Shown here: positions 621 through 34,192 of the stretch, piece by piece
Layout: every line of letters starts with the position of its first letter
Position numbering within the stretch: the first letter of the stretch is position 1
Origin: a virus
IMG/VR virus record: IMGVR_UViG_3300030085_000725
Coordinates: 1 to 34,192 of that record
Length of the DNA: 34,192 nt
Direction: 5' to 3' (one strand)
Position numbers and translations under genes: made by a program
The notes under the pieces: generated by a model
The model's input: only the letters and a program-made list of their open reading frames with translations
Databases searched by the model: none
Told to the model about the DNA's origin: nothing

Positions 621-815
621 ATTGGAACGGCCAAAGAAGGACGGGGTAATCTAACCCTCTGTCACGCCTCAATCGCGCTTTGCGCGGCTTGAAGTTCACA
701 CGCGCAGCCTTCGGCTAGACGCGAATGCGGCTGCGCGCACGACCCCTTTATGGGGTTGTGAACTTTTGAGGCTTGACGTAGAGAGGGTTGCCCCGTCCTT
801 CGTGGCTGTTCCAAT
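621..815. repeat. Large nested inverted repeat / multibranched hairpin island
   Basis: Outer arms 621-672 and 766-815 are imperfect reverse complements; both outer ends read ATTGGAAC and both inner ends GCCTCAA, with GAAGGACGGGG and CCCTCT in between. Inside, without conflict, nest a hairpin 674-686 (CGCGC-TTT-GCGCG), a perfect 9-bp stem 692-700/757-765, and within that a perfect 9-bp stem 701-709/729-737 and a 5-bp hairpin 742-746/752-756. The 9-bp inner stem abuts the outer arm and both inner hairpins. The segment is GC-rich compared with the rest of the genome and holds no credible gene. It lies between divergent genes, upstream of the small terminase. It could be a replication origin, a packaging site or a structured RNA; the sequence does not decide. 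Confidence 0.85.
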
Positions 816-10000: not shown

Positions 10001-12270
10001 TGAGAAAAGTAAAAGTACCCTTAACTAATTTCCAATACGGAGAAATTAGTCCTTCTCTTATATCAAGAACAGACTCTGAGATATACAATTCTTCTGCACA
10101 ACGTATGAAGAATTTTTTTATAAGAGCAGAAGGTGGTGTCCTTAAACGTGGTGGTTTTCAAGCCTTACATAAGTTTTCAAGTGTAACTGTTGATAATACA
10201 AAGCGTCAGCAAATACGATTGTTTCCGTTTATTTTCTCTGATGATGAGCAATATGTTGTTGCAATGTCTAATAATAAATTAGAAATATTTTTTATTGATC
10301 CTTCAACTGGTGCTTTAAGTTTAGTTACAACATTAACACAAGATACCGATAGCGTAGCATTACCATTTTCTGAGAATATATTACATGAGATAACTTTTGC
10401 TCAAGGTGGCGATGTATTATTTCTATGTCATAATTCTTTTATGTGTCGGCAGCTTGTAAGAACAGGACTTAATAGTTTTCAAGTTGAGTTATATGTATTT
10501 CAACAAGAAGCAGGTGGAGCAAGAATACATCAGCCATATTATCATTTTCAACCTTTTGGTGTTACTCTTAATCCTGCGGCATCAACTGGTAATGGCGTTA
10601 CAGTAACAACAAGCCAAGCTTATTTTGATACAACAGGTTCACAATCTGGTGGCAACTACCCAAATTCTAAACACGTTGGGGTTTCATTAAGGTATCATGA
10701 CTCTGAGTTGTTTATTACTTCTGTGCAATCAACAACGCAAGCAACAGTCAATATAGTTGACACTCTTAGAGTAGAACTTGCGGCAGATGCTTTAAGAACA
10801 GTAGATGGTTCTACTGATGTAGAAATAACTCAAATCAATCATGGCATGAGTGTTAATAATAGTATTACAATTGAAGATGCAGGAAGTGTTGGTGGTATTG
10901 CTGCTAATCAAATCAATGGCTCAAGAACAATTAACAGAATTATTGATGAGAATAGATATAAAATAACTGCTGGCGCTGCCGCTAATGCATCAGAAGATGG
11001 TGGAGGTTTTCCAAAGATTGTAACCCATGCGCCATCAACTGAGTGGTCTGAACAATCTTACTCTGCTGTTCGTGGTTTTCCTGCGGCTGTTGGGTTTCAT
11101 GAAAATCGACTTTGGTTTGGTGGTACACTATCACAACCAGATTTTGTTTGGGCAAGTAAAACAGCTTTGTATTATAACTTTGATCTAGGTACTAGCGCAG
11201 CAAATGATTCTATAGAACTTGTTGCTAGTATTGGTGAAATAGGAACTATTAGACATTTTGTTTCTAATAGAGACATTCATATTTTTACAGCTTCTTCTGA
11301 GTTTTACATACCTACATTTCAGAACGAACCTATAACTCCACTCAATGCTCAGATGAAACGTCAAACAAACTTTGGCGCAGGATTTGTAAGACCAGAACCT
11401 TTTTACGGTGCTACTGTATTTAATCAAATTGGCGGCAAGATGATACGTCAATTTGTTTATGATGATACTGAGAATGCATATAAGTCTGACCCTATATCTG
11501 TATTATCATCGCATTTAATTAATGATCCTGTGCAAATGTGTATTGTTGCAGGTGCAGTAAATACATCAGAGTCATTTATATTTATTCTTAACTTCACAGG
11601 TGATCTTGCGGTTTATAATGTAAACAAACTAGAGAACCGAGCAGGGTGGAGTAACTTTGTGACTGATGGATCATTTCATTCTATTATGTCTATTGAAAGC
11701 AGAGTGTTTGCTGTAATCAAATATGATTTAGGTGCAGGTACAGAGCAGTTTGTTCTTACTGAACTTAATGCAAATATGAATATTGATAATGCTAATAACT
11801 ATACTGGAACAGCAGGCGTGTTCAATGTATCTAACTTTTTTGATAATGGTGCTGTTGTTGATGTAGTTAGCTCAACAGATTATCTTGGCCAGTTTACTGT
11901 AGCTAATGGTAATGTTGATGTTAGTGCTGTTGATTCTGCGTTGACTTCTTGTCAGGTAGGTTTTGGTTTTGATGTAGAGTTAAAATCTAATCCTATTGAT
12001 ATAGGCATATCTACTGGTCCTCTTACTGGTGAACCAAGAACAATTGGTAAGGTAATATTAGATTTAAACAATACATTATCTGTATCAGTTAATGGAACAA
12101 AACTATTTATAAGAAAAGTAAATGATGATTTTGACCAGATACGACAAGCTGTAACTGGTAAAAAAGAATTCTATTTATTAGGGTATAACAGAGATCCTCA
12201 AGTTACAGTTACACAAACTGCACCTTTAGGAATACAAGTAAACAGTATTATAGCGGAGGTTACATTCTAA
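10000..12270 (+). CDS. Tail tubular protein B (T7 gp12-like nozzle)
   Basis: 756 residues, matching gp12 (about 790). The start TNFQYGEISPSLISRTDSEI, then MKNFFIRAEGGVLKRGG is the family signature; AVGFHENRLWFGGTLSQPDF lies near the middle of a mostly beta protein. Six copies form the tail nozzle through which DNA leaves. It overlaps its neighbours by one base at each end. Confidence 0.93.
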   Translation: MRKVKVPLTNFQYGEISPSLISRTDSEIYNSSAQRMKNFFIRAEGGVLKRGGFQALHKFSSVTVDNTKRQQIRLFPFIFSDDEQYVVAMSNNKLEIFFIDPSTGALSLVTTLTQDTDSVALPFSENILHEITFAQGGDVLFLCHNSFMCRQLVRTGLNSFQVELYVFQQEAGGARIHQPYYHFQPFGVTLNPAASTGNGVTVTTSQAYFDTTGSQSGGNYPNSKHVGVSLRYHDSELFITSVQSTTQATVNIVDTLRVELAADALRTVDGSTDVEITQINHGMSVNNSITIEDAGSVGGIAANQINGSRTINRIIDENRYKITAGAAANASEDGGGFPKIVTHAPSTEWSEQSYSAVRGFPAAVGFHENRLWFGGTLSQPDFVWASKTALYYNFDLGTSAANDSIELVASIGEIGTIRHFVSNRDIHIFTASSEFYIPTFQNEPITPLNAQMKRQTNFGAGFVRPEPFYGATVFNQIGGKMIRQFVYDDTENAYKSDPISVLSSHLINDPVQMCIVAGAVNTSESFIFILNFTGDLAVYNVNKLENRAGWSNFVTDGSFHSIMSIESRVFAVIKYDLGAGTEQFVLTELNANMNIDNANNYTGTAGVFNVSNFFDNGAVVDVVSSTDYLGQFTVANGNVDVSAVDSALTSCQVGFGFDVELKSNPIDIGISTGPLTGEPRTIGKVILDLNNTLSVSVNGTKLFIRKVNDDFDQIRQAVTGKKEFYLLGYNRDPQVTVTQTAPLGIQVNSIIAEVTF

Positions 12271-12722
12271 TGCCCCCATGGTTATTACCTGCCATTCTTG
12301 GTGTAGGCACCGTTGCATCTATATCTGCTCAAAATAAAGCAGGTAAAGCATCTGAAAGAGAAGCTAAAATAAGAGAAAACGAATATCGTATTGATAAGAA
12401 GATGGGTAAAGCCGCAGCTTATCAAAGACATTCGGATAGATTGCGTGAACTAAATGACGCAAATAATAGTAACGAAGCTTTGTTATTAGGTTTTAATAAC
12501 AGAGAGATAACCAATGTAGCTGCATTTTTCAAAGCACAAGAAGATATTGCTAAACAAGATATAAAAAATATTGATCTTATGATGGATATAGAAGCAAGCA
12601 AACGTGATGTGCAAGGTGCAGCCGCCAGAGCGCAAGGTAAATCTGCAAGCTCTATTGCTAAAGCTAATATGATCTCAACAGCAATGACAGGTATTAGTAC
12701 ATATTTGATGTTTAAAACATAG
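12270..12722 (+). CDS. Internal virion protein B (T7 gp14-like)
   Basis: 150 residues. Hydrophobic front (MPPWLLPAILGVGTVASIS), then a charged helix (AGKASEREAKIRENEYRI) and an Ala/Ser-rich C-terminus ending in a second apolar helix. T7 gp14 has the same place, size class and layout; it is ejected first and inserts in the outer membrane. The assignment rests on order and architecture. Confidence 0.8.
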   Translation: MPPWLLPAILGVGTVASISAQNKAGKASEREAKIRENEYRIDKKMGKAAAYQRHSDRLRELNDANNSNEALLLGFNNREITNVAAFFKAQEDIAKQDIKNIDLMMDIEASKRDVQGAAARAQGKSASSIAKANMISTAMTGISTYLMFKT

Positions 12723-32616: not shown

Positions 32617-32755
32617 AATCTACTACCTCATCCATTGAAATAAAAAACTTTACATGCACAAAACCACCTTGCATTGATGATATTGCGTAATCATGTGGGC
32701 AAGTCTTGAGCCACTGTAATAGTGACTCAATGTTTTTAACTTGAACTGTAATCAT
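32588..32755 (-). CDS. Tiny hypothetical early protein
   Basis: 55 residues. ATG at 32755 overlaps the stop of the DUF932-like gene (ATGA) and the end overlaps the next gene by 29 bases. Sequence MITVQVKNIESLLQWLKTCP, then YAISSMQGGFVHVKFFISMD: an alpha/beta mini-fold with a V-H-V-K-F-F strand. It fills what would otherwise be a 135-base gap in a gapless operon. Function unknown. Confidence 0.7.
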   Translation of the reverse strand: MITVQVKNIESLLQWLKTCPHDYAISSMQGGFVHVKFFISMDEVVDYGREKAFKD

Positions 32756-33594
32756 AGTGAATACCACGCATCAGAGTTCATTGCTTTGGCGATCTCATTC
32801 TCACGCAACCGACGAGCATTTTCTGGATTACCTAAATGATCCGTATGTGTAGCCCACTCAGTCAATGTATTATACAATGCCCATACATTGTTACCAACGT
32901 ATGCTCGATTGTTATCCCACATGCGCAAGAGTTCTTCACGCCTGCTCTTGTTATAATGTGGATACATTGGATTACCACGTTGCCTTGTCTTACACATAAC
33001 ATCATTGATAAATCTTTCAGCTTCATCATTACCAAGTCTACTATCAATGTAAGATTTGAACAAAGTATCTGACAGTTTGAATGCCTCAAGACCTTTCTCA
33101 ATCTTAGCTGCTGATGCTTGAACAGATACATTAGTTGTATGCTTTGCCCAAGTCTTAGCTACAGTATGCGGTGTAGTGCAACCATTCATACACCAAAGAC
33201 GCAAGCCTTCGGCTTGTTGTTGGAATGCCCAACTAGCATCGTATGAATTGTAGAATTGAATACGAAAGGTAATGATGTCATCAACCTTCGGTTCTATCTT
33301 AAGATCTGGAAAGATAACTTCACCTCGTAGCTTACGACCACCATCAATAACGTGGAACTTTTCTTCATACTTAGTACCAAGAGTATTAGCTACATCATCA
33401 ATAGAATCCATAACACTATTGACTACATCACTGTGCGTAATGATCTTGTACTTGTCACCAAGTCCACGACTCATATGTTCGCCAGTGTCAGTGCGAACAA
33501 CCACACGATTACCTTCGATCTTATTACCATGACGGTCATAAGTTTCTTGAAGTTCTACTGGGAAATCCCAAGTAGCATTAGTAAAATCCAACAT
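32752..33594 (-). CDS. DUF932-like phage/plasmid protein
   Basis: 280 residues, GAGGAG before ATG 33594. Fits the DUF932 (phage/plasmid-like) family: VVVRTDTGEHMSRGLGDKYK, ITHSDVVNSVMDSIDDVANT, GRKLRGEVIFPDL, LRLWCMNGCTTPHTVAKTWA, and a C-terminal EWATHTD segment. Such proteins are common in early regions of phages and on plasmids; the biochemical role is not settled. It is the second gene of the early operon, right behind the tiny membrane protein, under the promoter at 33772-33809. Confidence 0.85.
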   Translation of the reverse strand: MLDFTNATWDFPVELQETYDRHGNKIEGNRVVVRTDTGEHMSRGLGDKYKIITHSDVVNSVMDSIDDVANTLGTKYEEKFHVIDGGRKLRGEVIFPDLKIEPKVDDIITFRIQFYNSYDASWAFQQQAEGLRLWCMNGCTTPHTVAKTWAKHTTNVSVQASAAKIEKGLEAFKLSDTLFKSYIDSRLGNDEAERFINDVMCKTRQRGNPMYPHYNKSRREELLRMWDNNRAYVGNNVWALYNTLTEWATHTDHLGNPENARRLRENEIAKAMNSDAWYSL

Positions 33595-33604
33595 ATTCTT
33601 CTCC

Positions 33605-33730
33605 TCATGTTACGATGGAAATTAAAACTAAGAACCAGAAGAACACGCCAGAGCCACCAATTATAGTAGCAATCACAGGCCATAGTCCTTCTTGTTCAAC
33701 GAAATCTACAAATGCATTATACAGTTTCAT
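33605..33730 (-). CDS. Tiny single-pass membrane protein, first gene of early operon
   Basis: 41 residues, the first reading frame after the early promoter, with an excellent GGAGGT ribosome site before ATG 33730. MKLYNAFVDFVEQEGLWPVI is followed by a transmembrane stretch of about 20 residues (VIATIIGGSGVFFWFLVLIS). The best ribosome site and first position mean it would be made at once after infection; superinfection exclusion or host inhibition would fit, as speculation. Confidence 0.75.
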   Translation of the reverse strand: MKLYNAFVDFVEQEGLWPVIATIIGGSGVFFWFLVLISIVT

Positions 33731-33771
33731 TTCTCTACCTCCGTTATGAAACTCAAACTTGAATGTAGTTT

Positions 33772-33809
33772 GTATAGAAAACTATACTACACATAACACC
33801 ATGATGCAA
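33772..33809 (-). promoter_or_regulatory. Operator-overlapped early promoter for the leftward operon
   Basis: Minus strand: TTGCAT (33809-33804), 17 bases, TATAGT (33786-33781). The -10 box is embedded in the perfect palindrome GTATAGTTTTCTATAC (33772-33787). It differs from the exonuclease operator only in the central bases. The first ATG downstream is at 33730. Any protein bound at the palindrome would block the -10, so this is probably a repressor site. Confidence 0.78.
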
Positions 33810-33872
33810 CCCCCACTGTCGAGGAAGGGGCGAATAAAATAGCAAGTCACAATTAATCAAGGGTGCTATGTA

Positions 33873-33940
33873 GCGCATCATCAATGCGCAAGCGATACCG
33901 CTATGGCGGTACGCACCGTTCAAATCGCTGCGAAGCAGCG
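33873..33940. repeat. Cluster of three short perfect hairpins
   Basis: GCGCAT/ATGCGC (33873-33889), TACCGC/GCGGTA (33896-33911) and CGCTGC/GCAGCG (33926-33940), each a perfect 6-bp stem with a 3-5 base loop, spaced 6 and 14 bases apart. No gene is credible in 33810-33970. The block lies upstream of the early promoter and downstream of the 188-residue gene. An origin or a packaging signal are options. Confidence 0.7.
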
Positions 33941-33970
33941 AAAAATTTTTGGGGGGTCTTTCAACCCCCC
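33941..33970 (-). terminator. Hairpin terminator behind the 188-residue gene
   Basis: On the minus strand, six bases after the stop of the gene at 33977: GGGGGGT, loop TGAAAG, ACCCCCC (33970-33951), then AAAAATTTTT (33950-33941). The 7-bp GC stem is strong, but the T run begins five bases late. It would isolate this gene from the early promoter region. Confidence 0.6.
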
Positions 33971-33973
33971 TCA

Positions 33974-34192
33974 ACTTTAAGCTGCTAGGATCTTATCGAT
34001 CTCATTAACTTCAGCCTTCAACGCTTTGGCGTCGACCTTCTTTGAAGGTGCTTCGCCATGCGTCTCACGCAATTTATAAGGAACGAAGGGCTTGCCTCTG
34101 ATTTCCTCAATGATTCCTACAGTCGCTGTATATAGTTCCATTGCTGCACTGTATTCATCAATCAACCGATCTCGCTCTGAGCGTAAACGGTT
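33974..34192. repeat. Right copy of the imperfect terminal direct repeat
   Basis: Matches 1-219 at 212 of 219 positions without gaps. It begins at the base just before the matching stop codon, after the terminator hairpin, and is cut by the window end. See the left copy. Confidence 0.9.
33977..34192 (-). CDS. 3' part of the 188-residue hypothetical protein (second copy, cut by window end)
   Basis: Open through the window edge: the last 71 codons of the gene seen at 4-570, with one amino-acid change (THGD to THGE). The 5' part lies outside the window. If the genome is circular this is the same gene seen from another strain, so it should not be counted twice. If real, the two copies would be a recent tandem duplicate. 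Confidence 0.8.
   Translation of the reverse strand, partial: NRLRSERDRLIDEYSAAMELYTATVGIIEEIRGKPFVPYKLRETHGEAPSKKVDAKALKAEVNEIDKILAA

Follow-up and report, generated by a model that had tools for sequence, protein, structure and literature searches.

The nested, multibranched palindrome at positions 621–815 is best read as belonging to a new family of structured regulatory phage RNAs in marine podoviruses, lying outside every named family. Sequence comparison makes it probable that the palindrome encodes a functional + strand RNA. Antisense control of the adjacent leftward gene by this RNA is a more tentative proposal, to which we give somewhat less than an even chance. The explanation as a whole, namely a structured RNA in the sense of the terminase small subunit gene (terS) that is antisense to the start of the leftward gene and controls that gene, we place at about even. 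Across relatives, the nested fold of 190–430 nt occupies a fixed place, where it overlaps or abuts the leftward gene start; it is built on a three-way junction whose core covaries, and its wobble pairs are specific to one strand.

The window analysed here is the whole virus record (34,192 bp). Its ends, 1–219 and 33974–34192, overlap by 219 bp at 96.8% identity. This recurrence of the first 219 bp at the right end makes it probable that the record represents a nearly complete genome of about 33.97 kb, assembled as a circle, with strain differences. The overlapping contig ends fall elsewhere than the palindrome. Rightward genes encode TerS, TerL, a T7-type head-tail adaptor, tail and lysis functions, while leftward ones include RecE-like, RusA-like and O-like replication genes. 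The closest cultured relative found is the SAR11 phage Pelagibacter phage EXVC031P Hodr (TerL 66%, head-tail adaptor 58%), whose palindrome-bearing intergenic region is at 12037–12373. As the sequence-only reading of this DNA had it, the palindrome is flanked by divergent genes, the leftward ORF 4–570 and terS at 1054–1431, and a terminator, for which such a gap has no need, was looked for there and not found. The leftward protein matched no Pfam or PHROG family, and leftward genes at this site in relatives have about 130–190 codons. A search for tRNA and tmRNA returned none. The features referred to below are the following.

4–570, − strand: leftward gene, 188 aa, its start codon 51 nt from the palindrome
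621–815, + strand (terS-sense): nested multibranched palindrome, read as a structured RNA from its folds and a covariance-model match
621–671, + strand: left arm of the outer helix (P1/P2), pairing with 767–815 through 43 pairs, interrupted
673–687, + strand: hairpin P3 (673–678 with 682–687), seen in the fold and recurring here in relatives with other sequence
688–699, + strand: conserved core motif CTTGAAGTTCAC, CTTG[AC][AC]GTTCGC in many groups
691–699, + strand: 5' strand of P4, within the core motif
701–737, + strand: hairpin P5 with a UUCG loop (701–713 with 722–737), seen in the fold and shorter in L086
741–757, + strand: hairpin P6 (741–746 with 752–757), seen in the fold
758–766, + strand: 3' strand of P4, GTGAACTTT, supported by P4 covariation
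767–815, + strand: right arm of the outer helix, partner of 621–671
982–1012, + strand: promoter-like TTGACA ... TATAAA of terS, lying between the palindrome and terS and kept in relatives
1054–1431, + strand: terS, terminase small subunit gene (phrog_2538, E 3e-14)
32752–33594, leftward: gene with a DUF932 domain (E 6e-17)

The palindrome comprises 77 pairs and is present as it had been described from the letters alone: in the computed fold the imperfect outer inverted repeat and four inner stems all nest without conflict, and the junctions placed at 700/701 and 756/757 are essentially right. Folding of 600–830, a check proposed in the same reading, gave a strong structure on each strand, with a minimum free energy of −120.7 kcal/mol on + (z −11.6) and −115.5 kcal/mol on − (z −7.6), and 0 of 200 dinucleotide shuffles folded as well. 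The block is indeed GC-rich in an AT-rich genome (G+C 57% versus 38% genome-wide), and once G+C is corrected for, 621–815 is the most extreme fold of the 34-kb window.

The regions upstream of terS were compared in 97 relatives. Their intergenic DNA falls into about 25 mutually non-alignable groups, most of which have a nested palindrome of 190–430 nt between the same two genes. By a strand-symmetric inverted-repeat score, with 15 as the threshold for a long repeat, long inverted repeats are found in 45 out of 55 dereplicated relatives versus 1 out of 50 coding controls from the same contigs. The Hodr clade, treated separately, gives 41 out of 55 versus 1 out of 52. The sequence-only reading had named two findings that would refute it, relatives devoid of the structure and arms that drift without compensation; for most relatives neither holds. 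A long palindrome was undetectable (score below 13) in 5 of the 55 relatives and in 6 of 55 in the Hodr clade. Folded singly, the window's element and 19 others have z from −7 to −29 on +, and 17 of these 20 have a better z on + than on −. The compensatory changes that had been suggested as a further check are found both in P4 (see below) and among the closest relatives: between the window, L085 and L086, 64 of 76 pairs are unchanged and three have both bases replaced but still pair; of the others, one no longer pairs and eight lie within the hairpin that L086 has shortened. A search for DNA similarity of the region in annotated phages gave chance matches only. Scans with either terS or terL each returned at least about 600 matches, indicating that the group of marine podoviruses with the element is common.

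Inside arms that vary, many groups share a three-way-junction core consisting of P2, hairpin P3, the motif (G)CTTG[AC][AC]GTTCGCAA, the inner helix P4 and TTGCGAAC, which leads back to P2. When the most divergent cores were treated with RNAalifold and MAFFT, P4 alone aligned, and P2 and P3 were judged per sequence. Across 19 distinct sequences, 97.8% of P4 cells are paired, compared with 30–50% in slid control registers. Six P4 pairs have double-sided changes, there are 37 double-changed cells versus 14.5 in shuffles, and the covariation score was reached by none of 500 shuffles. The base changes run from C-G through A-U to U-A and from A-U through U-G to C-G. Two gapped patterns derived from the core motif alone were scanned over 2.9 million viral contigs and returned 30 loci, all of which are this site. 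In 28 of them terS lies 228–622 nt downstream on the same strand; in the other two, the leftward gene is present and the contig stops within 360 nt of the motif, before terS. Covariance model R1 matches the window at 643–806 on + with an E of 6e-7, a value to be read in view of L274, a sequence included in the model; L274 and the close relative L086 are one contig. Once L274 is taken out, the match is at 655–792, the window's sole matched place, and since its E is then only 0.058, membership of the window in the core family rests mostly on motif, place and relatives. Searches of the Hodr clade did not recover the conserved core, so that form alone is common to both clades.

The strand on which the structure acts can be approached through mismatches between the arms. 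In a palindrome of duplex DNA, G.T and A.C should be equally frequent, because a G.T on one strand reads as an A.C on the other. With arms found by Watson–Crick scoring only, without strand bias, and with one representative per group, G.T and A.C stand at 120:25, and 18 of 20 informative groups fall on the same side (p 4e-16; 6e-12 against composition). In the Hodr clade, which was added later, the ratio is 173:65, or 34 genomes versus 13, those with A.C above G.T being a minority of 13 out of 56. Splitting the counts by overlap of the palindrome with the leftward coding sequence leaves the bias unchanged (70:15 with overlap, 71:17 without), and the consensus core of 12 relatives contains 28 G.U cells and no A.C. 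Mutation bias from C to T or from A to G was considered as the source of G.T and rejected, since a G.T-making pressure would leave unpaired bases T-rich or A-poor; instead, within the elements the unpaired + strand letters are rich in A (A 665, T 399, G 639, C 631). The excess of G.T over A.C, as a sequence signature, thus suggests that the folded molecule is an RNA of the terS-sense strand. A weaker argument comes from isolated mismatches (G.T 78, C.T 46, A.G 35, A.A 25, T.T 21, G.G 16, A.C 15, C.C 1), whose spectrum resembles RNA tolerance more closely than that of DNA, in which A.G should exceed C.T. Counts of stable tetraloops (CUUG 5:1, GNRA 1:2) are too few and give no clear strand preference. 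The sequence-only reading had offered a replication origin, a pac/cos-like site and a structured noncoding RNA as candidates. Only the third gains support, because the form is kept with compensatory changes and strand-specific wobble pairs, and nothing favours the first two. More generally, a strand-symmetric mismatch count offers an alignment-free way of telling RNA palindromes from DNA palindromes.

The palindrome had also been tied to the terminase operon, but its distance from terS varies by hundreds of bases, and the fixed point is the start of the leftward gene, to which it is anchored in all 29 genomes. The leftward ATG lies within the palindrome in 19 of the 29 and 20–57 nt from its edge in the other 10, the window included, so in these 10 antisense overlap depends on the leftward transcript start. 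The window's palindrome stops short of the leftward ribosome-binding site (RBS). The leftward RBS and first codons recur, inverted and imperfectly copied, in the right arm of group B, Hodr and L218. The L218 palindrome, at −791 to −410 from terS, has almost perfect 142-bp arms, the right one being a near-copy of the leftward gene start with its ATG altered; judged by its letters, it looks as if newly made.

If the palindrome is transcribed as a terS-sense RNA, the 5' half of that RNA would be antisense to the leader of the leftward gene and, in most relatives, also to its RBS and first codons, and for this reason we propose that it may control that gene. It would most likely act by pairing with the leftward mRNA as an antisense or by forming a duplex, so that this mRNA is blocked or degraded, and we would guess that the block is set when rightward (late) transcription takes over, at the passage from early to late. 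No convincing sigma-70 promoter was found at the element's 5' edge on + (mean percentile 0.69), and sigma-70 promoter enrichment at the element edges is not distinctive on either strand. A bolder version, which we consider unlikely, is that lineages keep remaking the giant palindrome from the leftward gene start, by inverted near-copying of its RBS and first codons, such that the terS-sense RNA would be both antisense to and a mimic of that mRNA, built around a three-way junction. If true, the element would be a regulatory RNA, both sense and antisense, that renews itself and has no known counterpart. For the leftward-protein family of L099, at a related position, AlphaFold predicts a helical hairpin (pLDDT 88), and the PDB matches of this model (tubulin cofactor A, lengthened Rop) are not significant, with E of 0.07 and above. 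Rop acts on antisense RNA pairs; the likeness was given no weight, the helical-hairpin fold being generic.

Alternatively, the folded form could be the 5' leader of the leftward mRNA, on the − strand, where a giant hairpin would hide the RBS and gate translation, the G.T bias on + then reflecting selection that weakens the hairpin on −. Such a leader would explain why the palindrome follows the leftward start codon in every genome and why its right arm nearly copies the RBS and first codons in group B, Hodr and L218, and the favoured mismatches, read on −, are A.C and C.C, the most disruptive ones. However, a leader selected for its fold should display G.U on −, the opposite of what is observed, and both the A-richness of unpaired bases and the better z-values belong to +, which makes this reading unlikely, although it is the strongest rival to a terS-sense RNA.

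Less probable again is a strand-specific signal in single-stranded DNA, similar to a primosome assembly site or to the single-strand origins of rolling-circle plasmids. The latter are large, imperfect, strand-specific noncoding palindromes of variable sequence, a form that the element matches; G.T is tolerated in DNA too, and the phage encodes an O-like initiator. On the other hand, the mismatches do not follow DNA stability, isolated C.T (46) being no rarer than A.G (35) next to G.T at 78, and this better fit to RNA disfavours single-stranded DNA. Moreover, the overlap with the leftward start codon would be left unexplained, and no rolling-circle Rep was seen among the scanned proteins, which cover part of the ORFs; the only replication-type genes recognised among the scanned ORFs are the O-like initiator, RecE-like and RusA-like genes. 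Published single-strand origins share with the element a large imperfect strand-specific palindrome, but theirs is a DNA function (PMC4595007).

Slightly less probable still is a cis-acting leader of the late operon, working in antitermination as HK022 put does, or else an RNA directed at the terminase or at host defence in the manner of cabRNA. The element does share strand and side with the 27-kb late operon, and cabRNA is a structured RNA from terS/terL genes (PMC10686824). Against a late leader, a conserved promoter-like site lies between the element and terS, so that the main terS transcript need not carry the RNA, and it is the leftward start, not the distance to terS, that is held constant. 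An origin as a mutational by-product, in which template switching on quasi-palindromes makes and mends inverted repeats without selection, is very improbable: young, nearly perfect palindromes (L218, L195, L196 and L188) and wholesale replacement between groups agree with it, but it does not predict the strand bias, the fixed-place core motif or covariation with G.U intermediates. Least probable is a palindrome of double-stranded DNA without a single-strand role (packaging start, resolvase-cut cruciform or recombination hot spot), for although it adjoins terS, a RusA-like resolvase is encoded and new, nearly perfect palindromes such as that of L218 with its 142-bp arms do arise, a duplex has no strand, and the strong strand bias of mismatches in two clades strongly disfavours it.

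Rfam searches at gathering and permissive thresholds returned no match, pRNA, GOLLD and HEARO included, and no earlier description of the element was found in the open-access literature. Among known systems, the cis-antisense RNAs (lambda OOP, P22 sar, IS10 RNA-OUT, CopA and RNAI) are likewise structured and overlap the leader or start of a gene on the opposite strand. However, they are about 70–110 nt long with one to three stems, whereas the element is a nested structure of 190–430 nt with a three-way-junction core whose other arm mimics the target, in the sense orientation, in some relatives. The pRNA of phi29, a phage RNA linked to packaging, is about 170 nt long and has a three-way junction. 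The element, as a proposed phage RNA with such a junction, resembles it, but differs in varying twofold in size, in occurring with ordinary TerS and TerL and in having no Rfam match. HK022 put consists of two short hairpins, and, unlike it, the element is separated from the operon by a promoter-like site; what they have in common is that putRNA, too, is a cis-acting structured phage RNA upstream of an operon (PMC9378689). GOLLD, ROOL and HEARO are large, ornate noncoding RNAs found via covariation, some of them in phages (PMC2864571), but besides the lack of an Rfam match, size, place and core differ. By place and size, the nearest published phage RNA among those found is cabRNA, a CBASS-activating structured RNA of some 400 nt from staphylococcal phages, which shares the terminase region with the element but is set apart by source and place, being located within the terS-terL coding sequence, while the element is outside it (PMC10686824). 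The sequence of the element changes too fast for homology searches, which suggests that other structured phage RNAs have been overlooked likewise, and its presence in a cultured SAR11 phage makes its role open to experiment.

Several further observations concern the surroundings of the element. Many relatives have an ORF of similar length at the place of the DUF932 gene. The gap between that gene and the leftward 188-aa gene (33595–33973) also folds well, better on − (from 33595 to the end, −198 kcal/mol on − versus −169 on +), and L005 and L007 have strong folds near −1000 from terS. Just upstream of terS, at 1014–1036, the polypurine tract GGGGGGAGAGAGGGAGAGGGGGG forms a near-perfect mirror repeat. 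Its 18 distinct variants in relatives have two G-runs of matched length (5/5, 6/6, 7/7), with one exception, and a short spacer, usually A-flanked; triplex (H-DNA), G-quadruplex or terminase-site function is possible. A second structured element, GATACTCACC...(variable stem)...ATGAGTAGC, is present between the palindrome and terS or nearby in L085, L086, L026, L028 and L077 and had no match in Rfam. A motif like CTTTGTAGTATGC is conserved in many groups shortly past the right end of the palindrome (from terS, −130 in L090, −159 in L099, −112 in L120 and −253 in L078), with no consistent sigma-70 spacing on either strand. Finally, L133, L141, L156 and L077, groups without the CTTG/GTTCGC core, share another hairpin, CGGAGGGTCC-loop-GGAAACCG, whose internal loop, AGGG/AA, is conserved.
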